Assembly: GCA_003229115.1 (NCBI GenBank)
Contig: QIHT01000075.1
Location: 1 to 34,334 of the forward strand
Reading direction: 5' to 3'
DNA length: 34,334 nt
From: Gammaproteobacteria bacterium
Lineage (GTDB): Bacteria; Pseudomonadota; Gammaproteobacteria; SZUA-229
Positions within the stretch are counted from its first letter, which is position 1. The number at the start of each line of letters is the position of its first letter. The notes beneath the pieces were generated by a model, which searched no databases, had not been told where the DNA came from, and was given only the letters and a program-made list of their open reading frames with translations. Of the stretch, positions 7,172 through 23,355 are shown one piece after another. The position numbers were made by a program, and so were the translations under genes.

Positions 7172-7189
7172 CTTAAATATAACTTAAAT
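7172..7189 (+). promoter_or_regulatory. Direct repeat CTTAAAT-N4-CTTAAAT upstream of the SGP1 promoter
   Basis: Two CTTAAAT units (7172-7178 and 7183-7189) start 11 bases apart, one helical turn, just upstream of the -35 at 7195. This geometry is typical of OmpR/PhoB-family response-regulator sites and resembles the PmrA box pattern (YTTAAK-N5-YTTAAK). The same arrangement precedes SGP2, with a different spacer. The regulator is not in the window. Confidence 0.4.
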
Positions 7190-7194
7190 AATTA

Positions 7195-7224
7195 TTGACT
7201 TATATTAGAATTTTATAATATAAT
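7195..7224 (+). promoter_or_regulatory. Sigma70-type promoter of SGP1
   Basis: TTGACT (7195-7200) and TATAAT (7219-7224) are separated by 18 bases. A one-base shift in the -10 (ATATAA) would give 17. The box is in an AT-rich stretch. Transcription would begin close to 7231, immediately before the leader hairpin. Confidence 0.75.
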
Positions 7225-7231
7225 ACTTCCA

Positions 7232-7272
7232 TTGGTCGTACAGGCCAAGCGCATGAAACTAATTATTTGCTG
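7232..7272 (+). promoter_or_regulatory. SGP leader element: 5' hairpin, GCGCATGA, TTTGCTG
   Basis: The stem TTGGTC/GGCCAA (7232-7237 and 7243-7248) encloses the five-base loop GTACA. GCGCATGA follows at 7249-7256 and TTTGCTG at 7266-7272. The same three blocks occur before SGP2, SGP3 and SGP5. The SGP5 copy uses TTGGTT/AACCAA, so both sides of the stem change together. The hairpin would sit at or near the 5' end of the mRNA, where such structures can protect a transcript from decay; that function is inferred. Confidence 0.65.
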
Positions 7273-7299
7273 TTAAACAAAAACTTTTAGGAAATTATT

Positions 7300-7683
7300 A
7301 TGAAAACATTACAAATCATCGCTGCTGCTGCAGTACTTGCTGCTTCTACCTCTGCTAACGCTTGGTGGGGTCCTTTTGACAACAACAGTTACAACAACGG
7401 TTCACAAAACGGTTACGGTTCACAAAATGGTAACGGTAACGGTGCTGCTGACGGCGCTGTAGACGGCGACTTCGACACCAGCTTCTCTTTCGGTATGAAA
7501 GCTTCTGGTAAAGGTCGTGGTAACGGAAACGGCAACGGTTACGGCTACAATGACTACCGCGGCCAGAATGGCTACAACGGTTCTAACGGTTACAATGGCT
7601 ACAACGGCCACGCACCTTACGGTTACGCTCCTGTAGCTCCAGTTGCACCAGCTCCTGCTGCTCCGGCTACTGTAACTAAGTAA
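7300..7683 (+). CDS. SGP1: sulfur globule family-like secreted Gly/Asn/Tyr-rich protein
   Basis: This 127-residue protein has a Sec signal peptide (residues 1-21, ending ANA before WWGPFD). The mature part is low complexity and lacks cysteine: an Asn/Gly/Ser linker, a core with DGDFDTSFSFGMKASGKGRG (about residues 51-70), N-G-Y repeats, and a Pro/Ala tail with APYGYAPVAP. Composition, size, signal peptide and lack of cysteine match the sulfur globule proteins of purple and colourless sulfur bacteria, which coat periplasmic sulfur globules. The assignment is by resemblance, not by alignment. An AGGA site (7289-7292) fixes the start. It has its own promoter, leader and terminator. SGP2 is a near-identical paralogue about 7.95 kb downstream in the same orientation. 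Confidence 0.7.
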   Translation: MKTLQIIAAAAVLAASTSANAWWGPFDNNSYNNGSQNGYGSQNGNGNGAADGAVDGDFDTSFSFGMKASGKGRGNGNGNGYGYNDYRGQNGYNGSNGYNGYNGHAPYGYAPVAPVAPAPAAPATVTK

Positions 7684-8809: not shown

Positions 8810-10099
8810 ATGTTATCCAAATTTAGAAATCATTGTTTCGGCTATATACTGCTATTTTTCAGTAGCGTGTTATCAGCAGAAACGAGCCCAAATTATGACC
8901 CGTCGAATACCCGTTCGCAGAACATAAATTTACCGCAGGCTATAAGCAAAACATTTACGCATAACCCGGCATTAAAAGCTTTTAGCTATGAAGTTAAAGC
9001 GCAACAAGGTCGCGAACTCCAGGCGGGGATGTCTGCCAGTCCTGAATTTAATATTGCTGTTGAAGATGCCCTGGGATCAGGTGCTTTTAAAAGTGCAGAT
9101 AGCGCGCAGTTCACCTTGAATATTGGCTGGGTACTGGAAGGTGAAATTCGCCAGAGTTATATTGATGAAGCACGAGCAGGTGCCTTATCACTTTCGACTG
9201 AGACAAACATCAAACGACTAGATGCGGCCGCTGAAACCGCGCGCCTGTATCTTATCTGCCTGGCACAACAGGCTCGCCTGATCAATGCGGATAAAACCTG
9301 GAAACTCGCCAATGAAACCGTGATTGCGGTCAATAAGCGAGTGACGGCAGGTAAAACACCTGACGCAGAACTGGAAAGAGCCAGAGCAGAGCTAGCGAGA
9401 AGAAATCTTGATCGTGAAAAAATTACCTACCAGCTGAGTTCGGCGATTCGTTTATTAGCCGCGCAATGGGGTGAAACTGATCCTGAATTTACAAAAGTTG
9501 AGGGTGATATTTTTAATACACCTCAAGCCCTGTCTTTTGAAACCCTTAAAAACCGTCTCGAACAGAGTCCCGATTTTCTTCGTCTGATGTCGGACAAACG
9601 CCTGAAAAAGACCCGCTTAAAACTGGCACAGTCTCAAAGCAATCCGGAATGGAAAGTGAATCTTGGCGTACGCCATTTTGAACGGACGAATGATCAGGCG
9701 CTGGTCGCGGACATTAGCATACCCTTTGGCGAACGCAGTCGAAATAGTGGGCGTATTCGCACGGCACAGGAAAATTTATCGCAAACGCAAGCTCTACAGG
9801 ATGAACTAAGGGTACGTATCGAAACCACGCTGTTTATTTTATCTCAGGAACTGCAGCACAGCCTGCATCGGGTTGAAACCTATCGCGAGAAAATTATTCC
9901 CCGACTTGAAACCGCATTAAGTCAAACCCGCCGAGCCTATGATTTAGGTCGCTACAGTTATCTCGAATGGCGTAGCGTGCAGGCGGAATTACTCAATGCA
10001 CGCACCTCGTTAATTGAAGACAGTATCGCGGCACATTTAAAAGTGATTGAAATTGAACGTTTAACCGGCGTATCTATGATTAAACCGGCAGGTAAATAA
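8810..10099 (+). CDS. czcC: CzcC-type outer-membrane efflux protein (TolC family)
   Basis: This 429-residue protein has a signal peptide (about residues 1-23) and the two-fold TolC-like pattern of long helices: LPQAISKTFTHNPALKAF near the N-terminus, an alpha-hairpin around LAAQWGETDPEF, and the second repeat from LEQSPDFLRL through RRAYDLGRYSYLEWRSVQ. CzcC forms the outer-membrane channel for the CzcA pump. An ACAGGAGAT site precedes the ATG at 8810. The czcB start lies two bases past the stop, so the genes are translationally close and in one operon. Confidence 0.88.
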   Translation: MLSKFRNHCFGYILLFFSSVLSAETSPNYDPSNTRSQNINLPQAISKTFTHNPALKAFSYEVKAQQGRELQAGMSASPEFNIAVEDALGSGAFKSADSAQFTLNIGWVLEGEIRQSYIDEARAGALSLSTETNIKRLDAAAETARLYLICLAQQARLINADKTWKLANETVIAVNKRVTAGKTPDAELERARAELARRNLDREKITYQLSSAIRLLAAQWGETDPEFTKVEGDIFNTPQALSFETLKNRLEQSPDFLRLMSDKRLKKTRLKLAQSQSNPEWKVNLGVRHFERTNDQALVADISIPFGERSRNSGRIRTAQENLSQTQALQDELRVRIETTLFILSQELQHSLHRVETYREKIIPRLETALSQTRRAYDLGRYSYLEWRSVQAELLNARTSLIEDSIAAHLKVIEIERLTGVSMIKPAGK

Positions 10100-10101
10100 T
10101 T

Positions 10102-11367
10102 ATGAAAAACACGATGAAACTATTTAACACGAAGTTGCTATTTATAAGTCTGCTGATCATTTGTTCAGGCTTGCTACTAAGCGCATGTGGAAATTCAGAA
10201 GACGAACATCACAACGCAACCCATAATGCCCATCACGCCCCCATTGAAAAAGGTTCACACGGTGGTCGTTTACTAAGCCGTGATGATTTCACTATCGAAT
10301 TATCTATTTTTGAAACCGGTGCGCTCCCTAAATTTCGTGCCTGGGCCAGTTATGAAGGCAAACCATTAAAACCATCAGATGTCGAACTTAAAATTACTCT
10401 GTCGCGTCTGGGCGGAAAAGTGGATGAAATAAACTTTAAACCTCACAACGATGCAATGCGGGGTGATAGCGTTATTTATGAACCTCATTCATTTATTGTG
10501 AATATTGCTGCAAAACATAACGACATTAAATATAACTGGCAATACGACAACATTGAAGGCCGTACAAAAATTGAATCAGCCGTCGCTAAAGCACTGGAAA
10601 TCAGCACAGACACTGCCGGGCCAGTTGTGTTACAACAAACCGTTAATGTGTTTGGAAAAATCACCGCCAATACTGAACGCATGAGTCAGGTGAGTGCACG
10701 TTTTTCAGGAGTAGTTAAATCCATTTCTGTATCGATAGGTGACACGGTTCGCAAGGGCCAGACATTGGCCAGCGTAGAAAGCAACGAAAGCCTTAAACTG
10801 TACACTATCAAAGCCCCCATCAGTGGCACTATTACCCAGCGCAATGCCAATATCGGCGAACAGGTAAACGCACAAACTCTGTTTATCATTGCTGACACTT
10901 CAAATGTATGGGTGGATTTATCTATATTCCCGGCAGATCAACAACGCGTCAAACCAGGTGTGCCCGTCAGTTTTTCACTGGTAAATCAGGCTAAATCTTT
11001 TGCAGGAAAAATTACTCTGATCAATGTACTGGCAGAAGCAAACCAGTCGGTTATTGCACGCGCGGTTATTGATAACAAAAACGGCCAGCTTTTACCCGGC
11101 AGTTTTGTGAAGGCAAAAATCAAAGTCGATGAAGTTGCCGTCCCTCTGGCGGTAAAACGTTCGGGCTTGCAGGCCTATAGAGATTTTGCCGTGGTTTATG
11201 AACAAATTGGTGATGAGTATGAAGTGCGCATGCTGGAACTGGGTCGGCAGGATGATGAATGGGTGGAAGTGTTAGGTGGCCTGCAAGCAGGTGCCACTTA
11301 CGTTGTTGAAAACAGCTATGTGATTAAAGCCGATATTGAAAAATCCGGCGCCACGCATGACCATTAA
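10102..11367 (+). CDS. czcB: CzcB-type periplasmic adaptor (membrane fusion) lipoprotein
   Basis: This 421-residue adaptor begins with a lipoprotein signal whose lipobox LLSAC places the acylated Cys at residue 29. A histidine-rich segment follows (HHNATHNAHHAP), likely to bind metal. The next section, PIEKGSHGGRLL through the WQYDNIEG stretch, is the CzcB-type N-terminal beta domain. Then come the lipoyl/barrel-sandwich halves (FSGVVKSISVSIGDTVRKGQ and IKAPISGTITQRNANIGEQV) and the beta-barrel domain with PADQQRVKPGVPVSFSL. It links CzcA to CzcC. A second ATG at 10114 is possible. The czcA gene follows 35 bases downstream. Confidence 0.9.
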   Translation: MKNTMKLFNTKLLFISLLIICSGLLLSACGNSEDEHHNATHNAHHAPIEKGSHGGRLLSRDDFTIELSIFETGALPKFRAWASYEGKPLKPSDVELKITLSRLGGKVDEINFKPHNDAMRGDSVIYEPHSFIVNIAAKHNDIKYNWQYDNIEGRTKIESAVAKALEISTDTAGPVVLQQTVNVFGKITANTERMSQVSARFSGVVKSISVSIGDTVRKGQTLASVESNESLKLYTIKAPISGTITQRNANIGEQVNAQTLFIIADTSNVWVDLSIFPADQQRVKPGVPVSFSLVNQAKSFAGKITLINVLAEANQSVIARAVIDNKNGQLLPGSFVKAKIKVDEVAVPLAVKRSGLQAYRDFAVVYEQIGDEYEVRMLELGRQDDEWVEVLGGLQAGATYVVENSYVIKADIEKSGATHDH

Positions 11368-11402
11368 TTCAGCAGCCATTCATTCAGCTATGGAAAATTA
11401 TT

Positions 11403-14400
11403 ATGCTTGAAAAAATTATACAACTCTCCCTTTCTCGACGAGTGCTGGTGATTGTGCTGGTACTAATGATAATGGGTCTGGGTGCATGGAAATTCACCCA
11501 GCTGCCGATTGATGCGGTGCCAGACATTACCAATATTCAGGTGGTGATTAACACCGAAGCCCCTGGTTACACTCCACTTGAAACCGAACAACGAGTGAGT
11601 TTTCCGATAGAAACCGCCATGGCCGGTTTACCCAAATTATCCTACACCCGCTCTATTTCACGTTATGGCCTGTCTCAGGTCACCATTGTGTTTGTCGAAG
11701 GCACGGATATTTATTTTGCACGTCAGTTAGTCGGCGAACGCTTAAGTACTGCGAAAAGCAATATACCGAAAGACTTAGAACCAACCATGGGCCCCATCGC
11801 AACCGGTTTAGGTGAGATTTTTATGTTCACCGTGGATGCAGAACCCGGCGTTAAAAATGCCGATGGCAGTTTAGTCACGCCCACTGATTTACGTTCGGTG
11901 CATGACTGGATTATTCGTCCTCAATTAATGCGTGTGCCCGGCGTGGTGGAAGTGAACCCGATTGGCGGTTACAAAAAACAAATACTGGTTGCGCCCGAGC
12001 CCGCCAAACTCCTGTCCTATGGCATTAACTACAGCGATGTGGTGAATGCAGTAGAACAAAACAATGATAATCGTGGTGTTGGTTTTATTGAACACAACGG
12101 CGCACAGTGGTTAATGCGCGTACCCGGTCAGGCCAGTAATTTACAGGATCTTGAAAATATTATTATTCAACAACAGCAAGGCTTGCCCATTCGTATAAAA
12201 GACGTTGCAACGGTAAGTCTGGGTAAAGAATTAAGAACAGGCGCAGCCACTCAAAATGGTCGTGAAGTAGTGATGAGTACCGTGTTTATGTTGACCGGTG
12301 AGAACAGTCGCACGGTGGCCAATAATGTGGCAATAAAACTCGAAGAAATTAAAACCAGTTTACCCGACGGCATTACTGCCAACGCAGTTTACAATCGCAC
12401 TAGCCTGGTGGATAAAACCCTGGTCACAGTGCAAAAAAACCTGCTGGAAGGTGCCTTGCTAGTAATTGTGGTCTTGTTTCTGTTACTGGGAAACATACGC
12501 GCCGCATTATTAACCGCAGCGGTAATTCCTATTGCTATGTTAATGACCATCACCGGCATGGTGCAGACTAAAGTCAGCGCCAACTTAATGAGCCTCGGCG
12601 CACTGGATTTTGGTTTGATCATTGATGGTGCGGTAATTATTGTAGAAAACTGTTTACGCAAATTAAGTCAGGCCGGCACGAAACCACTACCTCTCAATGA
12701 ACGCTTAACACTGGTGTTCGATGCCACCCGCGAAGTGATACGCCCGGCATTGTTTGGTGTATTTATTATTACTGCCGTCTACATTCCCATTTTTGCGCTC
12801 GATGGTGTAGAAGGAAAAATGTTTCACCCTATGGCGCTAACAGTAATCATTGCCCTGATTAGTGCAATGATTTTATCCGTGACATTTGTGCCTGCCGCGA
12901 TTGCGCTTTTATTTAGCAAACCGATACAGGAAAAAGAAAACAGAATTATTAAAGCCGCACGGTCTGCCTATCAACCCATTTTAATGTTGTCACTAAGATT
13001 TCGTTGGGCGATAGTGTCAATGGCGGTGTTGTTGGTCCTGCTTTCTGCCACACTCATTCCCAAACTGGGTTCAGAATTTATGCCTAATTTAGATGAAGGT
13101 GACATTGTTATGCATGCACTGCGCATACCCGGCACCTCATTGCAGCAGGCAATACGTTTACAACAGGGCCTGGAAAATGAAATCAAAAAACTAGCGGAAG
13201 TGAAACTGGTGTTTGCAAAAATAGGCACAGCTGAAATAGCCACCGATGCTGTGCCCCCCAGTGTTGCCGATAATTTTATTATTCTTAAACCCCGTGATCA
13301 ATGGCCGGATCCTGATAAACCAAAATTGCAGGTAGTGGCAGAGCTCGAAGCACTGGTCACACCGATTCCCGGCAATCGCTATGAATTTTTACAACCGATT
13401 CAAATGCGCTTTAATGAATTAATCTCAGGCGTTCGTGCAGAACTTGCTATCAAAGTATTCGGTGATGATTTTGATCAACTAATTAGCCTCGGCTCTGAAA
13501 TTGAAAAAGCCCTTAAAAAAGTTTCAGGGGCGGCGGATGTAGCCGTAGAACAGGCCACCGGTTTACCCGTCATGACCATACAGCCAAAGCGTGAAGCCAT
13601 GGCTCGCTATGGATTGAGTATTGCTGAATTACAGAGCGTACTGGCTACCGCATTAGGTGGCAGCGTGGCCAGTCAGTTTTATGAAGGTGATCGTCGTTCT
13701 GACATTGTGGTGCGTTTGGCAGAACATTTACGTACCGACATGGTTGCCCTGTCCAGCTTACCGGTGATGCTTGCCAATGGTGATTATGTACCATTAGGAG
13801 AAGTTGCTGAGCTTAATTTAGTCACCGGCTATAACCAGATTTACCGGGAAAATAGCAAACGGCGCATAGTCGTTACCAGCAATGTACGGGGGCGCGATCT
13901 GGGATCATTTGTAAGTGCTGTACAGCAGTCGGTTACAGACAATGTTAAAATACCGGCAGGTTACTGGATTGAATACGCGGGCACTTATGAAAAACTGCAA
14001 TCCGCAACGCAACGCCTGTCGATTGTAGTGCCATTAACCCTGGCGCTGGTCATCGGTTTGCTGATTATGGCATTGGCTTCGATTAAGGATGCGGCCATTA
14101 TTTTCTCCGGCGTACCGCTGGCACTCACCGGCGGCATCGTCGCTTTGCTATTGCGCGACATTCCCTTTTCAATATCCGCCGCGGTTGGTTTTATTGCATT
14201 ATCCGGCATCGCTGTGCTCAATGGTTTAGTCATGGTGTCCTTCATTCGTGATTTACGCATGCATGGTCGAGACTTAAATGACGCGATTATTGATGGCGCG
14301 CTTACACGATTGCGCCCTGTTTTAATGACAGCCCTGGTGGCAGCCCTGGGTTTTGTTCCCATGGCACTCAATACAGGCATTGGCTCGGAAGTTCAGCGAC

Positions 14401-14531
14401 CGCTGGCAACTGTGGTCATAGGTGGCATTATCTCCTCTACCCTGCTCACACTGGTGGTCTTACCGGCCCTGTATCAGTTGGTGCATGGGCGAGAGAAGAA
14501 AGAGGCCAGAGATTTGCCGCATAATGAGTGA
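11403..14531 (+). CDS. czcA: CzcA-type heavy-metal efflux RND transporter
   Basis: The 1042-residue inner-membrane pump uses the proton gradient to export divalent cations. It has the RND layout of 12 helices and two large periplasmic loops. Helix 4 carries LDFGLIIDGAVIIVEN (about residues 401-416), matching the DFG-x3-DGA-x4-EN signature of the cobalt/zinc/cadmium (HME1) branch rather than the copper/silver branch. The start MLEKIIQLSLSRRVLVI and the motif QLPIDAVPDITNIQV are typical. Substrates are inferred from the motif. The TGA stop (14529-14531) is also the first three bases of a MITE-like repeat, so the last few residues (about KKEARDLPHNE) may have been altered by that insertion; length is still normal. 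Confidence 0.94.
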   Translation: MLEKIIQLSLSRRVLVIVLVLMIMGLGAWKFTQLPIDAVPDITNIQVVINTEAPGYTPLETEQRVSFPIETAMAGLPKLSYTRSISRYGLSQVTIVFVEGTDIYFARQLVGERLSTAKSNIPKDLEPTMGPIATGLGEIFMFTVDAEPGVKNADGSLVTPTDLRSVHDWIIRPQLMRVPGVVEVNPIGGYKKQILVAPEPAKLLSYGINYSDVVNAVEQNNDNRGVGFIEHNGAQWLMRVPGQASNLQDLENIIIQQQQGLPIRIKDVATVSLGKELRTGAATQNGREVVMSTVFMLTGENSRTVANNVAIKLEEIKTSLPDGITANAVYNRTSLVDKTLVTVQKNLLEGALLVIVVLFLLLGNIRAALLTAAVIPIAMLMTITGMVQTKVSANLMSLGALDFGLIIDGAVIIVENCLRKLSQAGTKPLPLNERLTLVFDATREVIRPALFGVFIITAVYIPIFALDGVEGKMFHPMALTVIIALISAMILSVTFVPAAIALLFSKPIQEKENRIIKAARSAYQPILMLSLRFRWAIVSMAVLLVLLSATLIPKLGSEFMPNLDEGDIVMHALRIPGTSLQQAIRLQQGLENEIKKLAEVKLVFAKIGTAEIATDAVPPSVADNFIILKPRDQWPDPDKPKLQVVAELEALVTPIPGNRYEFLQPIQMRFNELISGVRAELAIKVFGDDFDQLISLGSEIEKALKKVSGAADVAVEQATGLPVMTIQPKREAMARYGLSIAELQSVLATALGGSVASQFYEGDRRSDIVVRLAEHLRTDMVALSSLPVMLANGDYVPLGEVAELNLVTGYNQIYRENSKRRIVVTSNVRGRDLGSFVSAVQQSVTDNVKIPAGYWIEYAGTYEKLQSATQRLSIVVPLTLALVIGLLIMALASIKDAAIIFSGVPLALTGGIVALLLRDIPFSISAAVGFIALSGIAVLNGLVMVSFIRDLRMHGRDLNDAIIDGALTRLRPVLMTALVAALGFVPMALNTGIGSEVQRPLATVVIGGIISSTLLTLVVLPALYQLVHGREKKEARDLPHNE

Positions 14532-14726
14532 CCGCTTACGACCCTTGATGGACTGTCAAAAACTTTAAAAGCTATTCACCACAGAGGCACAGAGAGCACA
14601 GAGGTTTTTATTGTTAGCTACGCCGTAGGCGTCGCTAACAATAAAAAGGCTTTCTCTGTGCCTCTGTGGTGAAAGTTTTTTGGCATTGTTTTTGAACTGA
14701 CAAAAATGGCCGATAACGGGCGGTCA
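14529..14726. repeat. MITE-like element with TGACCGC ends and nested palindromes
   Basis: The termini TGACCGC (14529-14535) and GCGGTCA (14720-14726) are inverted. Further in, TTCACCACAGAGGCACAGAG (14575-14594) pairs perfectly with its complement at 14654-14673. The core (14605-14647) is a third hairpin, TATTGTTAGC...GCTAACAATA around ACGCCGTAGGCGT. It contains no open reading frame. Its left end supplies the stop codon of czcA. Confidence 0.8.
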
Positions 14727-14759
14727 AAACAACACCAACTCGACTGCTCAGACAAGCCC

Positions 14760-14841
14760 GTAGGTTGGGGTGAGGCACGAACCCCAACATATACTAATTT
14801 GAACGCTAAAATGTTGGGGTTCCTTCGTCACCCCAACCTAC
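14760..14841. repeat. GTAGGTTGGGG inverted repeat
   Basis: Imperfect 31-base arms at 14760-14790 (GTAGGTTGGGGTGAGGC...) and 14811-14841 (...CACCCCAACCTAC) enclose a 20-base centre. The arms match those of the palindrome at 34201-34304 beyond ispG. It lies between two copies of the CACAGAG element, apparently inserted at their junction. Confidence 0.88.
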
Positions 14842-14844
14842 TAA

Positions 14845-15050
14845 CTGTCAAAAGCTTTAAAAGCTATTTACCACAGAGGCACAGAGGACACAGAGAAAAA
14901 CTTTTTATTGTTAGCAACGCCGTAGGCGTCGCTAACAAAATAAACCTCTGTGTTCTCTGTGCCTCTGTGGTGAAAGTTTTTGACTTTATTTTTGAGTTGA
15001 CAAAAATGGTCAATAACGAACTATCAAAACAACACCAACTCGACTGTTCA
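14845..15050. repeat. Second tandem copy of the CACAGAG element
   Basis: This is a direct, diverged duplicate of 14552-14752: CTGTCAAAAGCTTTAAAAGC, arms CCACAGAGGCACAGAGG (from 14871, complement ending 14970), the same TTGTTAGC...GCCGTAGGCG core hairpin, and the same tail (CAAAACAACACCAACTCGAC). No gene lies between the end of czcA and SGP2; this stretch is repeats throughout. Confidence 0.85.
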
Positions 15051-15122
15051 GCCAGGCTATAGTCACCATCATAAAAATCACGACGTTCTAACTAGTTGTA
15101 TTTATTAACAATAGTTACAAAC

Positions 15123-15140
15123 CTTAAATTTAACTTAAAT
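15123..15140 (+). promoter_or_regulatory. Direct repeat CTTAAAT-N4-CTTAAAT upstream of the SGP2 promoter
   Basis: CTTAAAT units at 15123-15129 and 15134-15140 have the same 11-base spacing and the same distance to the -35 as before SGP1. Because the SGP1 and SGP2 blocks are recent duplicates, this conservation alone is weak support. Confidence 0.4.
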
Positions 15141-15145
15141 AATGA

Positions 15146-15175
15146 TTGACTTATATTAGAATTTTATAATATAAT
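15146..15175 (+). promoter_or_regulatory. Sigma70-type promoter of SGP2
   Basis: TTGACT (15146-15151) and TATAAT (15170-15175) lie 18 bases apart, with the whole box nearly identical to the SGP1 promoter. Confidence 0.75.
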
Positions 15176-15183
15176 TCTACTCG

Positions 15184-15222
15184 TTGGTCGTACAGGCCAG
15201 GCGCATGAAATTAAATTTGCTG
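15184..15222 (+). promoter_or_regulatory. SGP leader element (SGP2 copy)
   Basis: Stem TTGGTC/GGCCAG (15184-15189 and 15195-15200), loop GTACA, GCGCATGA (15201-15208) and TTTGCTG (15216-15222). The outer pair becomes a T-G wobble compared with SGP1. Confidence 0.65.
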
Positions 15223-15253
15223 TTAAATGAACAAAACTTATAGGAAAAACATT

Positions 15254-15619
15254 ATGAAAACATTATCAATTATTGCTGCTGCTGCAGTACTTGCTGCTTC
15301 TACCTCTGCTAATGCCTGGGGTCCTTTTAACGACAACGGTTCTAACAACTGGAACAACAACGGTTACGGTTCACAGAATGGTTACGGCAACGGTGCTGGT
15401 GATGGCGCTGTAGACGGCGACTTCGACACAAGCTTCTCTTTCGGTATGAAAGCTTCTGGTAAAGGTCGTGCTAACGGAAACGGCAACGGTTATGGCTACA
15501 ATGACTACCGCGGTCAAAACGGTTACAACGGTGCTAACGGTTACAACAGAGGCTACGCTCCTTACGGTTACGCTCCAGTTGCACCAGCTCCTGCTGCTCC
15601 AGTTACTGAAACCAAGTAA
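15254..15619 (+). CDS. SGP2: sulfur globule family-like secreted protein
   Basis: This 121-residue paralogue of SGP1 has the same signal peptide (residues 1-21, ANA before WGPFND), an Asn/Gly linker, the DGDFDTSFSFGMKASGKGRA core, N-G-Y-N repeats and an APYGYAPVAPAPAAP tail. It has no cysteine. ATG 15254 is chosen over 15227 because it follows AGGAAA and begins the conserved MKTL...signal peptide. Similarity to SGP1 extends from just upstream of the promoter (about 7168 and 15118) through the coding region to the terminator, showing duplication of a whole transcription unit. Confidence 0.7.
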   Translation: MKTLSIIAAAAVLAASTSANAWGPFNDNGSNNWNNNGYGSQNGYGNGAGDGAVDGDFDTSFSFGMKASGKGRANGNGNGYGYNDYRGQNGYNGANGYNRGYAPYGYAPVAPAPAAPVTETK

Positions 15620-15640
15620 GACTGTTTTAGTATCAGAAAA

Positions 15641-15688
15641 AGCCGGTCACCTCAGGGTATTATCACCCCAGGGTAGCCGGCTTTTTTT
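15641..15688 (+). terminator. Terminator between SGP2 and coiled-coil gene A
   Basis: AGCCGG...CCGGCT with additional internal pairing (CACC...GGGT and GGGT...ACCC) precedes eight Ts. The stem is longer and less perfect than at SGP1. Since coiled-coil gene A starts 37 bases later with no clear promoter, partial read-through is likely. Confidence 0.85.
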
Positions 15689-15724
15689 TCCACAGAATTT
15701 TATTTAGATATTCGGAGAAAACTC

Positions 15725-16399
15725 ATGGCCACTGCCAGTAAAAAAGAGACGGTTGAAAGCAAAATAGAAACAACCGAAGAGAGTCAACAGGAAGAAGTAC
15801 AACAAGATTCTATTTCTGATCGTAAAGTAATACTCGCACCCCTGGCCAAATATGGCGCAGTTGCTGTGGTTATTGTCGGCATCATTGTAACTACAGCCAT
15901 TATGATGAATCGGGAATTTAATGAAATCGACGCGCAGGTAGCAGCATTGGAAATTGAAATTGCACAGCAAAATCAACCAAAGCTGCAAACAGAACAGGAA
16001 GTCACTAAAACAACTGCTGAGCCAGTAGAAACACTTGCAAACAATGATGAAGCTACACCAGTAACCACATTAGCTGAAGTTATTCAGCCGGTCGCAACCG
16101 AGGCTGCTGTATCTGTATCTGCTCCTGTTTCAATTCCTGCGCAACCAGTGTCCAGAACATTAGATGCCAAAACGCGTATCGCTAAATTCCATGAGTTAAT
16201 GGCACAGCAGGATCAGAAACAGCTTGATACCTACAAGCTCAACCAGGCCAGACAAATCGAGATGCTACGTGCGCAGTTAACCAGGCAACAGGAAAGAATC
16301 GAAGCTATCGAAAAGAGAAATCAGGAATCCTACGCAATTCGTGAGGCCGCTGTAAAAAGAATGCAGCACACCCGCGAACAATCGCTGAACCGCATATAA
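15725..16399 (+). CDS. Coiled-coil protein A: membrane-anchored, periplasmic coiled coil
   Basis: I do not recognise this 224-residue protein as a named family. It has a charged Glu/Gln-rich cytoplasmic N-terminus (residues 1-35), a single membrane helix (about 40-62, AVAVVIVGIIVTTAIMM), a Thr/Val/Pro-rich linker (about 75-145), and a C-terminal helix rich in Gln, Arg and Glu (about 150-224) with heptad-like spacing, ending SLNRI. It has no cysteine. A GGAG site (15713-15716) precedes ATG 15725. Coiled-coil protein B (17969-18655) has the same layout and also ends in NRI. Position after SGP2 suggests a partner that anchors or organises the secreted protein at the inner membrane; this is inference. 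Confidence 0.75.
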   Translation: MATASKKETVESKIETTEESQQEEVQQDSISDRKVILAPLAKYGAVAVVIVGIIVTTAIMMNREFNEIDAQVAALEIEIAQQNQPKLQTEQEVTKTTAEPVETLANNDEATPVTTLAEVIQPVATEAAVSVSAPVSIPAQPVSRTLDAKTRIAKFHELMAQQDQKQLDTYKLNQARQIEMLRAQLTRQQERIEAIEKRNQESYAIREAAVKRMQHTREQSLNRI

Positions 16400-16423
16400 A
16401 GTCAGACGACTTCTGGAAACCGA

Positions 16424-16456
16424 GGCTATAGCACAGCGTGCTATAGCCTTTTTTTT
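16424..16456 (+). terminator. Terminator after coiled-coil gene A
   Basis: A perfect 11-base-pair stem, GGCTATAGCAC/GTGCTATAGCC, with a three-base loop is followed by eight Ts. Confidence 0.95.
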
Positions 16457-16508
16457 GAGCTAGATCAACCTGTCGCGTGATAATTGCACCACTTTCCTTC
16501 GAGACATA

Positions 16509-16561
16509 AAATATCTATCTAGTTGTTTTATATGGTTATTTATAGATCACCGTAGATATTT
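16509..16561. promoter_or_regulatory. Inverted repeat upstream of the SGP3 promoter
   Basis: AAATATCTA (16509-16517) and TAGATATTT (16553-16561) are perfect inverted repeats 28 bases upstream of the -35. This could be a regulator site or chance in AT-rich DNA. It differs from the direct repeats upstream of SGP1 and SGP2. Confidence 0.3.
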
Positions 16562-16588
16562 AATGTATCAAATAGATAAAAACACTAT

Positions 16589-16617
16589 TTGACTATATTC
16601 TGATTCTCTAATATTAT
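16589..16617 (+). promoter_or_regulatory. Sigma70-type promoter of SGP3
   Basis: TTGACT (16589-16594) and TATTAT (16612-16617) are separated by 17 bases, the ideal spacing. Start of transcription is expected near 16624. Confidence 0.75.
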
Positions 16618-16625
16618 ATTGCCCA

Positions 16626-16664
16626 TGGTTACATACGAACCAGGCGCATGAAAGTACTTTGCTG
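16626..16664 (+). promoter_or_regulatory. SGP leader element (SGP3 copy)
   Basis: Stem TGGTT/AACCA (16626-16630 and 16638-16642), loop ACATACG, GCGCATGA (16644-16651) and TTTGCTG (16658-16664). Compared with SGP1 the last stem positions change on both sides, preserving pairing, while the surrounding DNA has diverged. Confidence 0.65.
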
Positions 16665-16690
16665 AACAACAAAATTTTGAGGATTTTAAA

Positions 16691-17053
16691 ATGAAAACAT
16701 TAAAAATTATCGCTGCAGCTGCAGTTTTGGTGGCTTCTACTTCTGCTAACGCATGGTGGGGTCCTTTCGATAACAACAATGGTTATAACAACGGTTACAA
16801 CAATGGCTCCAGCAACTGGAACAACAACGATTTCGGTGACTTCATGGGCGACATGATGGGTGACATGGATATGGACTTTCAATTTAAAATGAAAGCAAAA
16901 GGTCGTGGTAACGGTAATGGCTACGGTTACAACAACATGAATGGTTATAACGGCTACAACGGATATAACGGTTACAATAGTTATAACGGTAATGCGCCTT
17001 ATGGTTATGCTCCTGCAACACCTGCTCAGGCTCCTGCAACGACTGCGCAGTAA
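16691..17053 (+). CDS. SGP3: sulfur globule family-like secreted protein
   Basis: This 120-residue protein has the signal peptide MKTLKIIAAAAVLVASTSANA (cleavage after residue 21) and a mature start WWGPFDNN. The core differs from SGP1 and SGP2: GDFMGDMMGDMDMDFQFKMKA (about residues 53-72) is rich in Asp and Met, followed by the shared KGRGNGNGYGY and N-G-Y repeats and an APYGYAPATPAQAPA tail. It has no cysteine. A GAGGA site (16679-16683) lies eight bases before ATG 16691. It is its own transcription unit with promoter, leader and terminator. The Asp-rich stretch could bind cations; that is speculative. Confidence 0.7.
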   Translation: MKTLKIIAAAAVLVASTSANAWWGPFDNNNGYNNGYNNGSSNWNNNDFGDFMGDMMGDMDMDFQFKMKAKGRGNGNGYGYNNMNGYNGYNGYNGYNSYNGNAPYGYAPATPAQAPATTAQ

Positions 17054-17071
17054 GCAACAAAAATTGCGAAC

Positions 17072-17107
17072 AAAGCCGATCACCCCGGGTGGTCGGCTTT
17101 TTTTTGA
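17072..17107 (+). terminator. Terminator of SGP3
   Basis: A 13-base-pair stem, AAAGCCGATCACC/GGTGGTCGGCTTT (one T-G wobble), with a three-base loop is followed by a T-run. It shares the CACC/GGTG core with the SGP1 and SGP4 terminators. Confidence 0.95.
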
Positions 17108-17217
17108 CTTCGTTATTCTGAATCTGACATGAACCTTAAAATCAGATGATTTAAATCAATTTGCCGTCATCTAAGCCCCTCACAGACTTGATAACTCCGA
17201 ATAACACAACGAAAATA

Positions 17218-17246
17218 CTTAACACCTAGTTCGTACCAGGTATAAT
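17218..17246 (+). promoter_or_regulatory. Candidate new promoter of SGP4
   Basis: A consensus TATAAT (17241-17246) has a weak CTTAAC -35 (17218-17223) 17 bases upstream. Transcription from here gives a leader of about 155 bases containing hairpins such as GAAGG-GAG-CCTTC near 17260, unlike the short leaders of the other SGP genes. Confidence 0.5.
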
Positions 17247-17300
17247 AGTTATTCACGGAAGGGAGCCTTCACTTTGCCTCTAAGAGCTGTAGAAGGGCTA

Positions 17301-17377
17301 TCGAAAATATCAGTTTTTTTCTAAATACTGTTTTGTGCTCTTGTTTATCTAACCCGCAGCACATAAATATTTTGTTG
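17301..17377 (+). promoter_or_regulatory. Decayed SGP promoter and leader upstream of SGP4
   Basis: The stretch lines up with the SGP5 promoter and leader but has lost the key positions: TCGAAA for TTGACA, AATACT-like for the -10, TTGTTTATCTAACC for the hairpin, GCACATAA (17359-17366) for GCGCATGA, and TTTGTTG (17371-17377) for TTTGCTG. It looks like an inherited element no longer under full constraint. Confidence 0.45.
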
Positions 17378-17407
17378 TATAAACGTGTTTCTTAAGAGGA
17401 ATTGCAT

Positions 17408-17869
17408 ATGAAAGTATTAAGAGTACTAGCAGCTGCTACCATTCTACTGACTGCCACATCTGCTAACGCATGGTGGGGTAACAACGGTAACAATGGTTGG
17501 GGCAACAATAGTGGTAACTGGAACAACACTGGCGATGGCTACGGCTATGGTGACGGAAGTGGTTACGGTGACGGCAGCGGCGACATGGACGGCGATTTTT
17601 CATTCAATATGAATGCCAAAGGCAGCGGTCGTGGGCGTGGTGATGGTTATGGTTATAACAACTACCGCGGCAACAACAACTGGAGCGGCAATCAGGGTTA
17701 CTACGGCAACCAGGGGTACGGTAATCATGGATACGGCAACCAGTATAATCGAAACTACGGCCCTCGACCGGGTTATGGATATCCTCCTCAGCGCCCATAC
17801 TATGGTCCGGGTCCGGGTTACGGTGCACCGCCACCTGCACAGGCTCCTGCGCCAGCTCCAGCCAAATAA
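17408..17869 (+). CDS. SGP4: larger sulfur globule family-like secreted protein
   Basis: This 153-residue protein has a diverged signal peptide (MKVLRVLAAATILLTATSANA) before WWGNNGNNGW. Repeated G-D-G-S-G-Y units lead to the family core DMDGDFSFNMNAKGSGRGRG (about residues 60-79). Then come Tyr/Asn/Gly repeats (GNQGYGNHGYGNQ) and a Pro-rich end (YPPQRPYYGPGPGYGAPPP). It has no cysteine. ATG 17408 is preferred over the TTG at 17402 because AAGAGGA (17394-17400) is spaced correctly for it. It is the most diverged member in both coding and upstream sequence and is followed by coiled-coil gene B. Confidence 0.7.
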   Translation: MKVLRVLAAATILLTATSANAWWGNNGNNGWGNNSGNWNNTGDGYGYGDGSGYGDGSGDMDGDFSFNMNAKGSGRGRGDGYGYNNYRGNNNWSGNQGYYGNQGYGNHGYGNQYNRNYGPRPGYGYPPQRPYYGPGPGYGAPPPAQAPAPAPAK

Positions 17870-17897
17870 TAAAACGAGCTCAGAGCTGACCTGAAAA

Positions 17898-17927
17898 ACA
17901 GGTCACCGTCAGGTGGCCTGTTTTTTT
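17898..17927 (+). terminator. Terminator between SGP4 and coiled-coil gene B
   Basis: A 10-base-pair stem, ACAGGTCACC/GGTGGCCTGT, with loop GTCA is followed by a T-run. Coiled-coil gene B begins 42 bases later, repeating the SGP2-terminator-gene A arrangement. Confidence 0.93.
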
Positions 17928-17968
17928 GCATAATAAAAATTATACTTGAATTTTATTTTGGAAAAATT

Positions 17969-18655
17969 ATGACTGATCAAGATGTAAGCAAAGACAAAGC
18001 TGCTGAAGTAGCGCCCTATCTGATTACTAATAAAAAAGATAAGAATGACATAAGCAGCAAAACAAACAGGCTGGTCCCGGTGATTATCATCCTGGTAGTA
18101 GCCATTGTGATTGTCGCCAGTTTCTTTGAAGATGAATACAAATCTCTGATGGCAGGCTTTAATCCTGAAGCTAACACAGGTGAAGAAGTCATCACCGCAG
18201 AAACCCCGGATAGCACTATTGGAAACAATGTAGAAACACCTGTCGCAAACACATATACGCTAGAAACAAAAAAACCTGTTGAGCTGATGACAACATCACT
18301 GGACACAACAGTTAATACTCAAGTCACTATAACGGCGGCGGCAACACCAACCACATCTCAACCCGGATTGATCACCGTGTATAACCCCTACCTCAGACCC
18401 TATCCTCAGGTGTATGCACCCATTCCTCCACAACTGCCTTATGCTATGCCGCCAAAACAGGCAAAAGCCTATACCGAAATGATACAAAAACGCCAGAAAG
18501 CAGTGGCAGAAATGATTGAGATGCGCAATGCCGCAATGTTGCGCATGGAAAAAAATCGCATGGAGAGAATTCAACGCATAGAGCAACAACGAGCACAGGC
18601 TCAAAAAACCTATGTAGAAATGCTAAAAAGACGACAGGAAGCTAACAGAATCTAG
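17969..18655 (+). CDS. Coiled-coil protein B: membrane-anchored, periplasmic coiled coil
   Basis: This 228-residue protein is not recognised as a named family but is laid out like coiled-coil protein A. It has a charged cytoplasmic N-terminus (residues 1-30), one membrane helix (about 32-51, LVPVIIILVVAIVIVASFF), a Thr/Pro linker (about 60-165) with YNPYLRPYPQVYAPIPPQLP, and a long basic/Gln-rich helix (about 168-228) with many Met and Arg, ending in NRI. It has no cysteine. The upstream GGAAAA is a weak binding site. It has no obvious promoter of its own, so it probably depends on read-through from SGP4. The Pro/Tyr linker resembles SGP tails and may contact them. Confidence 0.75.
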   Translation: MTDQDVSKDKAAEVAPYLITNKKDKNDISSKTNRLVPVIIILVVAIVIVASFFEDEYKSLMAGFNPEANTGEEVITAETPDSTIGNNVETPVANTYTLETKKPVELMTTSLDTTVNTQVTITAAATPTTSQPGLITVYNPYLRPYPQVYAPIPPQLPYAMPPKQAKAYTEMIQKRQKAVAEMIEMRNAAMLRMEKNRMERIQRIEQQRAQAQKTYVEMLKRRQEANRI

Positions 18656-18708: not shown

Positions 18709-18770
18709 CTCTATACTCAATGAATTCAATTGGTTATCGTTAAAAATCCGGCAAAAAAGCAATAAACTGA

Positions 18771-18799
18771 TTGACAATATAATTAAATTCTAATATTAT
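18771..18799 (+). promoter_or_regulatory. Sigma70-type promoter of SGP5
   Basis: A perfect TTGACA (18771-18776) and TATTAT (18794-18799) are separated by 17 bases. This is the best promoter match of the set. Confidence 0.8.
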
Positions 18800-18807
18800 A
18801 ACGCACC

Positions 18808-18846
18808 TTGGTTCTTATTAACCAAAAGCGCATGACACATTTGCTG
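18808..18846 (+). promoter_or_regulatory. SGP leader element (SGP5 copy)
   Basis: A perfect six-base-pair stem TTGGTT/AACCAA (18808-18813 and 18820-18825) with loop CTTATT, then GCGCATGA (18828-18835) and TTTGCTG (18840-18846). Relative to SGP1 (TTGGTC/GGCCAA) the closing positions differ on both arms but still pair. Confidence 0.68.
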
Positions 18847-18871
18847 ATAAACACTATTTGAGGGTATTTAA

Positions 18872-19498
18872 ATGAAAATTTTGAAAATTATTGCTGCTAC
18901 TGCAATTCTTGCTGCTGCAACTTCTGCACAGGCATGGAACGACAATGGCAACTACAACGGTAACGGTTACGGTTCACACAATGGCGCTGGCAACGGTGCT
19001 ACTGATGGCACTGTAGACGGTGACTTCGACACAAGCTTCTCTTTCGGTATGAAAGCCAGCGGTCGTGGACATGGTAACGGCAACGGTTACGGCTACAACG
19101 ACTACAATGGTTACAATGGCTATAACGGCAGCAACGGTTACAACAATGGCTATGCTCCTAATGGTTATGCACCTGCTCCTGTTTTGACTGAAGAGCAACA
19201 AGCTGAAATGAAAAAACAGCAGGAAGCTTTCCAGACAGCACAGAAAGAAGCTTTTGAACGTCAACAGAAAGCAATGAAAAACGGCCAGGCTTTTGCTCCA
19301 GTAGCTCGCCCTGCTACTACCTTCCAGGTACCGGCTAACATCGCAGAGCGTCGCGCTGAAATGCAAAAGCAAATGGAAGAACGTCGCAAACAAGCTGAAG
19401 CTCGTCGTGAAGCATTCATCAAAAGAATGAACGAAGCACGTGCACCTAAGGCTGTTGAAGAAGCACCTAAAGCAGTAGAAGCTGACAAAAAGAGCTAA
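18872..19498 (+). CDS. SGP5: SGP-like domain fused to a charged coiled-coil tail
   Basis: The 208-residue protein joins the two protein types of this cluster. Residues 1-21 are the signal peptide (ending SAQA before WNDNG). Residues about 22-105 are SGP-like, with DGDFDTSFSFGMKASGRGHG and N-G-Y repeats to APNGYAPAP. Residues about 108-195 are a charged helix rich in Glu, Gln, Lys and Arg (EEQQAEMKKQQEAFQTAQKE and AERRAEMQKQMEERRKQAEA) with a short Pro break (PVARPATTFQVP), followed by an Ala/Lys-rich end. The tail resembles in composition those of coiled-coil proteins A and B. It has no cysteine and no membrane helix after the signal. GAGGG (18860-18864) precedes the ATG. Confidence 0.72.
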   Translation: MKILKIIAATAILAAATSAQAWNDNGNYNGNGYGSHNGAGNGATDGTVDGDFDTSFSFGMKASGRGHGNGNGYGYNDYNGYNGYNGSNGYNNGYAPNGYAPAPVLTEEQQAEMKKQQEAFQTAQKEAFERQQKAMKNGQAFAPVARPATTFQVPANIAERRAEMQKQMEERRKQAEARREAFIKRMNEARAPKAVEEAPKAVEADKKS

Positions 19499-22152: not shown

Positions 22153-22623
22153 TTATGCAGGCCGGGTGAACGAGGCTCGTTCAGCGTTCTGCATCAGGCA
22201 ATCAAAAGCATCGGCCGCCACGTGTATCAGCTCTTCATGGTCACCTGCTTCGAAATAGACATCAGATTCAGACAGCAGTTTTTCATCGATGACCACTTCA
22301 ATATCGTAAACCTCTCCAATCGGTGGCACCGCTCCCAGTACACAGTCACCGAGTAAATCTGCCAGTTCCTGTTCACTGGCAAATTCGAGTCGGCGGTTAA
22401 TTTGTCGATACAGGTTGCCGAGCTTGATTCGACTGGAAGCCGGGCAGACAGCCATCACATAACCACCTTCATCTTCCAGCATGACGCATTTGGCAATTTT
22501 TTCCGGTGGCACATGCGCTTCGCGTGCGACATCCATGCTGGTACTTGCATAGGGATGGTCTATCAGCTCGTATTCCACATCCAGACTATCCAGATAATGT
22601 TTTAGCGTCATCGCCATCCCCAT
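22153..22623 (-). CDS. YbaK/aminoacyl-tRNA deacylase domain protein (copy 1)
   Basis: This 156-residue protein has the YbaK/prolyl-tRNA-editing fold: KIAKCVMLEDEGGYVMAVCP, RIKLGNLYRQINRR, the loop CVLGAVPPIGEVYDIEV, and EAGDHEELIHV. Such free-standing domains hydrolyse mischarged tRNA. The GAVPPIG loop is the usual substrate-recognition segment. A GGAG site is seven bases upstream of the ATG at 22623. It follows a diverged paralogue, 30 bases apart, and the pair probably arose by tandem duplication. Specificity cannot be read from sequence. Confidence 0.85.
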   Translation of the reverse strand: MGMAMTLKHYLDSLDVEYELIDHPYASTSMDVAREAHVPPEKIAKCVMLEDEGGYVMAVCPASSRIKLGNLYRQINRRLEFASEQELADLLGDCVLGAVPPIGEVYDIEVVIDEKLLSESDVYFEAGDHEELIHVAADAFDCLMQNAERASFTRPA

Positions 22624-22653
22624 AATATATCTCCTGCCTTTATTATTGGTTCG

Positions 22654-23124
22654 TCACATGTGTCGACTAAACTCACCGTGGGACACGTTGCCCATTAGCG
22701 CTCTAAAATCCTTGCCGGTTACATGCACCAGATCAGTATGATCGCCCGCTTCAAAATAAATATCCTGGCACTCATTCAGATGGTCATCAAAAATCACTTC
22801 GATGTTGTAGGCTTTTCCAATGGGAGGCACCGCGCCTACGCTACAATCCGCAAACAATTCGTGCAAATCTTTCTCGTCTGCCAGTGATAAATATCTTTGA
22901 TATTTTTTTCTCAACTTTCCGAGCTGTACATGATGAGTCGCCGGTATGACAGCCATGATGTAGCCATCTCCATCGTGAAGCACAACACCTTTGGCAAGTT
23001 CCTCACCCGAAACATGCGCGCCCTCAGCCGTCCTCAGACTTGTCACCGAATAGGGGTGTTCAATGAGATCGTATCTCACACCTTCAGTTTCAAGGTAATC
23101 TTTTAACGTAATCGCAATAGCCAT
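22654..23124 (-). CDS. YbaK/aminoacyl-tRNA deacylase domain protein (copy 2)
   Basis: This 156-residue paralogue of copy 1 has the same landmarks: ELAKGVVLHDGDGYIMAVIP, HVQLGKLRKKYQRYL, CSVGAVPPIGKAYNIEV and EAGDHTDLVHV. The ATG at 23124 is chosen because AGGAGGG (23131-23137) lies six bases before it; an in-frame TTG at 23130 is less likely. The two copies differ in many surface positions, so specialisation for different mischarged tRNAs or thioester substrates is possible. The 231 bases upstream, to apeB, show no gene. Confidence 0.85.
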   Translation of the reverse strand: MAIAITLKDYLETEGVRYDLIEHPYSVTSLRTAEGAHVSGEELAKGVVLHDGDGYIMAVIPATHHVQLGKLRKKYQRYLSLADEKDLHELFADCSVGAVPPIGKAYNIEVIFDDHLNECQDIYFEAGDHTDLVHVTGKDFRALMGNVSHGEFSRHM

Positions 23125-23355
23125 GACCAACCCTCCTTAACTGATTAACCACTCTCTGGGCTTTAAATTCGTTCGGAAACAGAAACAATAGTCTTCGTAA
23201 CATGAGCCACCCCCCCAGCAGACCTGGCACAGAACCCGGAAGCTGACATCCCTGCATCTGAACCAGCCACAACGCCACGTCACAACTACAAGAATAAGAA
23301 TCCGCGTTTCGAAGTCAACACTTTCCTTTAGTGATTTTGATCATCGGACTGTAAG

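Follow-up and report, generated by a model that had tools for sequence, protein, structure and literature searches.

Two families of membrane-anchored helix proteins encoded next to sulfur globule protein genes, possible anchors of the globule coat

How is a storage granule kept in its place in a bacterial cell? PhaF/PhaM/AlgP-type proteins tie polyhydroxybutyrate and polyphosphate granules to the nucleoid (PMC13052382, PMC3556143), and in magnetosomes a mineral organelle is kept in place by membrane or helical proteins, namely MamJ, MamY and the Mad coiled-coil proteins (PMC13052382). Sulfur is not mentioned in that recent review of bacterial organelle positioning (PMC13052382); there seems to be no account of what keeps sulfur globules in place, sets their size and distributes them, and the globule proteins described so far are coat proteins. 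Among them are SgpA, SgpB, SgpC and other sulfur globule proteins (SGPs) with the Pfam domain PF17228, and SgpD of Allochromatium vinosum (Alvin_2515), a helix-containing, extracytoplasmic coat protein that is not of the SGP-domain type (PMC10386293). Periplasmic globules, enclosed in infoldings of the cytoplasmic membrane, have been reported for Beggiatoa alba and Thiothrix (summarised in PMC6995342). Here, we describe two genes, A and B, on contig QIHT01000075.1 of a gammaproteobacterium of the order SZUA-229 (assembly GCA_003229115.1, a 2.3-Mb draft in 252 contigs); the whole contig of 34,334 nucleotides is called the window hereafter. Since the genome contains dsrA (633.8 bits against a cut-off of 392.9), the organism is probably a sulfur oxidiser of the sulfur-storing kind. 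Five SGP genes, S1 to S5, are found in the window, and A and B are placed among the last four (Table 1). The families of A and B are a real and apparently undescribed pair in the sulfur-globule system, and we see about an even chance that their members anchor the globule coat to the inner membrane. The open-access literature yielded no membrane-anchored coiled-coil sulfur-globule protein, but most subscription journals lay outside the scope of that search, so an earlier description is possible.

Families, linkage, charge-based topology, predicted helices and disorder, hairpins and the similarity between B and S5 were computed. Each of the two genes follows an SGP gene, as the original prediction for this DNA had observed; A starts 105 nucleotides (nt) after S2 and B 99 nt after S4, and the arrangement is not peculiar to the window. 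Relatives were searched with A or B and the profiles were then rebuilt, giving 16 full A and 17 B proteins; 31 of these 33 aligned members start 49-296 nt after the stop codon of an SGP gene and lie directly behind it, and the remaining two (genomes G007 and G019) sit just before SGP genes. Homologues mainly in unrelated contexts, which the original prediction had named as evidence to the contrary, were thus not found. Of 54 genomes of the order, 39 contain SGPs, 17 contain A and 24 contain B; A and/or B occur in 26 genomes, each of which is SGP-positive, and neither gene was found in the 15 SGP-negative ones. Such co-occurrence has a probability of 4e-6 if genomes are independent, which they are not, and some are incomplete, so that the figure is a guide only. 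One could suppose that A and B are envelope proteins with some other job, linked to the cell wall or to efflux for example, and merely co-located with SGP genes, since a few members show weak FtsL and GltJ matches and an efflux operon adjoins the cluster. However, their absence from SGP-negative genomes of the order, and a linkage held over many genera although identity to the window protein is only 26-40% for A and 19-30% for B, make this very unlikely.

Within the reach of our searches, both families occur almost solely next to SGP genes. SGPs are present in 55 of 369 sampled genomes of the class; there, the sole match of A outside the family is a 42-residue helix (1.5e-5), and apart from this short and weak match no A family member was found outside the order. 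Named records with A relatives are metagenome-assembled genomes labelled Thiotrichaceae (NORP24), Thiotrichales (bin102), or unclassified Gammaproteobacteria and Pseudomonadota. Behind 58 SGPs in other families, 37 of them with a same-strand open reading frame in range, no gene of the anchored-helix design was found, against 39 of 78 loci within the order; because the latter were partly picked for holding A or B, the informative figure is the zero outside. As for B, two matches (G137 and G260; L233, L234) look like pilin-type membrane segments and were dropped, and a third (G120; L232) is secreted and helical, with a layout like that of SgpD. A 420-amino-acid (aa) protein of another family (G341; L231:706-1968), with a membrane helix and a C-terminal helix and its gene convergent with an SGP gene, is possibly a distant B relative outside the order.

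What do A and B look like? Both open reading frames were confirmed, and hydropathy, composition and AlphaFold2 models agree with the design first read from them: one membrane helix, a Thr-rich linker (18% Thr in A, 29% in B) and a long C-terminal region of about 45% Gln, Arg, Glu and Lys. In the model of A, a helix at residues 34-93 runs through the membrane and is followed by disorder up to 141 and a helix at 142-223; in that of B, a helix at 32-63 is followed by disorder up to 161 and a helix at 162-227. The mean predicted local distance difference test score (pLDDT) is 68 for A and 64 for B, the C-terminal helices mostly reaching 93-99 and much of the remainder being low. Coiled coil may be too specific a name: hydrophobicity repeats best at 3.6 residues in both proteins, not at 3.5, with significance for B alone (p = 0.02; for A, p = 0.17), and 'long charged helix' is the safer term.

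All aligned A and B members have a single membrane segment, and in 33 of 33 the 15 residues before it carry at least as many positive charges as the 15 after it. By the positive-inside rule, this bias predicts a cytoplasmic N-tail and a periplasmic C-terminal helix; a cytoplasmic C-terminus, which would have spoken against the original prediction, is not what it gives. The N-tails, 16-100 residues in length, are long for a signal peptide, and no cleavage motif common to members can be read from the alignments. Both points argue against a cleaved signal peptide, and the membrane helix apparently stays uncleaved. They also bear on the idea that A and B are SgpD-like coat proteins, whose hydrophobic segment would be a cleaved signal peptide and whose helices would lie on the globule surface. 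SgpD is indeed an exported, helix-containing coat protein of globules (PMC10386293), and related tails are found in the clade on S5-type proteins and on secreted proteins consisting of helix only; but besides the long tails and the missing cleavage motif, the neighbouring SGPs carry ordinary short signal peptides, and we regard this idea as rather improbable. Compared by description, SgpD has a cleavable signal peptide and its own transcription unit, whereas in A and B the membrane helix is apparently retained after a long N-tail, and their genes stand behind an SGP terminator.

Neither protein resembles a described family. No Pfam family was matched by A or B up to E = 1, so that they have no SGP domain, nor do they have the Gly/Asn/Tyr-rich body of SgpA, SgpB, SgpC and PF17228 proteins, with which they share the cluster and presumably the organelle. 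A remote-homology search gave no convincing Pfam, NCBIfam or PDB match for either family: Pfam and NCBIfam matches of members are scattered, under cut-off and different from one member to another, the A profile finds only helices among solved structures (E 0.04 or worse), the B profile finds a pilin at 0.17, and a fold search of the A model in PDB gave no match. Conservation in the A family is highest in the membrane helix with its flank (PL.KY...IIVTTA.M; mean 0.75), followed by the C-terminal helix (0.56), while the linker (0.30) and the N-tail (0.26) vary freely; the B family shows the same ranking at lower levels.

Similarity between A and B is low, as originally stated (BLASTP E = 0.20). 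Homology over the full length was considered and rejected, as profile comparison aligns only part of the C-terminal helices; its score of 27.4 exceeds the maximum of 300 shuffles (20.6), yet is near the reversed control (24.1), so that a weak relation is possible. A and B are thus two separate families with weakly alike helices. What about the NRI ending that had first drawn attention to the pair? Both window proteins do end in NRI, by a chance of about 7e-4 for their composition, but it is not a signature of the two families. A proteins end in I in 16 of 16 cases, in RI in 15 and in NRI in 8; the 17 B proteins end in I (11), M (4) or S or T (2), with NRI in window B only. A hydrophobic last residue therefore looks to be under selection in both families and RI in A only; the shared NRI is partly a chance detail, and the endings of B's relatives rule it out for B as a sorting signal common to both proteins.

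B's helix resembles the tail of S5, the secreted SGP encoded next to it, more than it resembles A. The two align without gaps over 39 columns with an hhalign score of 39.6, against 21.4 for the best of 150 column shuffles, 23.7 for the best of 150 shuffles keeping the seven-residue register and 25.0 for the reversed profile, and the matching region of S5 is aa ~156-191; profile comparison of A with the S5 tail found nothing. SGPs in other families can have S5-like tails too, as do two anchored proteins encoded behind SGP genes in genus g4. When tail profiles were run against about 3,800 mechanical open reading frames, all drawn from SGP or A/B loci, they picked almost only SGP-type or SGP-linked proteins. 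Judged from these alignments, anchors and secreted coat proteins could share a helix module by which they might bind each other. In genus g11, secreted helix-only proteins with S5-like tails and no SGP domain, SgpD-like in layout, stand directly behind B in the place of S5.

It is to be noted that a terminator-like hairpin is found in 27 of 31 gaps between an SGP gene and A or B. The ATG codons of A and B in the window lie only about 35-45 nt behind a strong hairpin with a T run, which leaves little room for a promoter, so that their mRNA most likely arises by read-through of the SGP terminator. A and B lack the promoter-like region and the leader, with its TTTGCTG element, that are common to S1, S2, S3 and S5. 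Rfam gave no match over the cluster; the shared leader possibly reflects common regulation or an mRNA-stabilising element.

How then would the anchors work? Their cytoplasmic N-tail would be followed by a single uncleaved helix across the inner membrane, a flexible linker would cross the periplasmic space, and the charged helix of about 65-80 residues would bind the globule coat, B probably docking onto S5 through the matching helices. Periplasmic globules might thus be fastened to the inner membrane by A and B, or coat protein be collected there; arising by read-through, the two anchors would amount to only a fraction of the coat protein. Location in the periplasm and low dose are read from charge bias and hairpins, while docking and tethering are what we infer from the whole. 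The scaffold that the original prediction imagined is partly supported: the SGP linkage and the predicted periplasmic C-terminus fit it, and the likeness in design is real, but A and B come from two families with only weakly alike helices. A tether between membrane and coat would account for a flexible, helix-tipped membrane protein whose gene accompanies those of the coat, and an assembly factor would do so nearly as well. In the latter case, A and B would be membrane-anchored chaperones, comparable to PpiD or Skp on other periplasmic proteins, and their helix would keep newly exported, disordered SGP chains at the membrane and pass them to the growing globule. Linkage and topology suit a chaperone as they suit a tether, low dose suits a catalyst, and the conservation of A's membrane segment exceeds the need of a plain anchor, hinting at a membrane partner. 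The OmpH (Skp) profile matches one A member, weakly (0.0039), out of 11, and neither A nor B of the window; no folded chaperone domain is predicted, and the match between B and S5 suggests a binding pair over a general holdase. Such a role is the main alternative to a tether, though unlikely on balance.

Several observations weigh against membrane anchors. The C-terminal helix shows no clear heptad pattern, and charged helices can be alike through composition, a bias that is still a worry for the match between B and S5. For two B-type genes (L114, L115), the stretch that was read shows no SGP gene nearby. A and B also go undetected in some SGP-positive genomes of the order and are absent from most SGP-bearing lineages of the class, so globules in general do not need these proteins.

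In genera g9 and g11, the N-tails of several B relatives are basic (net charge +6 to +14) and some contain KPKA repeats; an APY[LMI] motif, present in window B as well, often comes next. We take these repeats to resemble those of the nucleoid-binding granule proteins PhaF, PhaM and AlgP. PhaM, PhaF, PhaH and AlgP likewise link a storage granule to a cell landmark, but they are cytoplasmic, whereas A and B are membrane proteins, and Lys/Ala/Pro-rich basic repeats are absent from both window copies. The likeness is a lead only; that the B family forms a trans-envelope positioner, with a nucleoid-binding-like tail, a membrane helix and a periplasmic helix zipped to the coat, is in our estimate a long shot. 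The magnetosome proteins serve another organelle in another compartment.

As to the SGP genes themselves, four of the five pass the PF17228 cut-off; S4 falls under it (12.7 against 26.7 bits) and is recognised by a clade SGP profile whose training set included the window SGPs. The efflux operon adjoining the cluster, CusABC-like by eye, is at 8810-14531; sgpD of A. vinosum is likewise reported beside an exporter gene (PMC10386293). Between operon and cluster, at 14552-15057, are intergenic direct and inverted repeats of 81, 52, 43 and 29 nt, 83-100% alike and spaced by about 300 nt. Tandem genes at 22153-23130 code for small proteins of 156 and 158 aa that are similar to each other and look YbaK-like by eye.

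Table 1. Features of the window and of related loci (positions refer to the window unless a locus is given)
Feature	Position	Strand	Basis or remark
S1, outlying SGP gene	7300..7683	+	PF17228 44.0 bits; promoter region resembles S2, S3, S5
S2, SGP gene before A	15227..15619	+	PF17228 45.1 bits; likely start 15254
Terminator-like hairpin and T run between S2 and A	15638..15689	+	-26.7 kcal/mol
Gene A, membrane-anchored helix protein	15725..16399	+	ATG start, 224 aa; 16-member family; AlphaFold2 model
A membrane helix, aa ~43-61	15851..15907	+	Hydropathy; best conserved region of A family
A C-terminal helix, aa 142-223	16148..16393	+	AlphaFold2, pLDDT mostly 96-98
Terminator-like hairpin behind A	16422..16450	+	Pattern scan
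S3, SGP gene	16691..17053	+	PF17228 38.2 bits
S4, SGP-like gene before B	17402..17869	+	Clade SGP profile 2e-30; likely start 17408
Terminator-like hairpin and T run between S4 and B	17895..17927	+	-20.2 kcal/mol
Gene B, membrane-anchored helix protein	17969..18655	+	ATG start, 228 aa; 17-member family; AlphaFold2 model
B membrane helix, aa ~35-53	18071..18127	+	Hydropathy
B C-terminal helix, aa 162-227	18452..18649	+	AlphaFold2; aa ~189-227 match S5 tail (hhalign)
S5, SGP gene with C-terminal charged helix, candidate partner of B	18872..19498	+	PF17228 36.3 bits
Shared SGP promoter-like region and leader	7185-7302, 15140-15256, 16583-16693, 18765-18874		…TATAAT…GCGCATGA…TTTGCTG
Secreted helix-only proteins behind B, genus g11	L031:11995-12558, L026:11043-11537, L104:2932-3396, L106:3031-3564, L109:1790-2278		
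B-type relatives with basic, partly KPKA-repeat N-tails	L114:4784-5566, L115:4800-5510, L104:3856-4806, L035:9375-10475, L110:1480-2193, L038:8841-9659		

What would these families mean for the cells that have them? The order SGP gene, terminator, anchor gene suggests a simple route to abundant coat and scarce anchor, because read-through of a terminator would give much of the former and little of the latter. If the basic tails of B relatives did bind the nucleoid, chromosome segregation would share out stored sulfur across the inner membrane. And if A and B are the anchors that we propose, they would give concrete candidates for the link between membrane and globule and for a docking pair.

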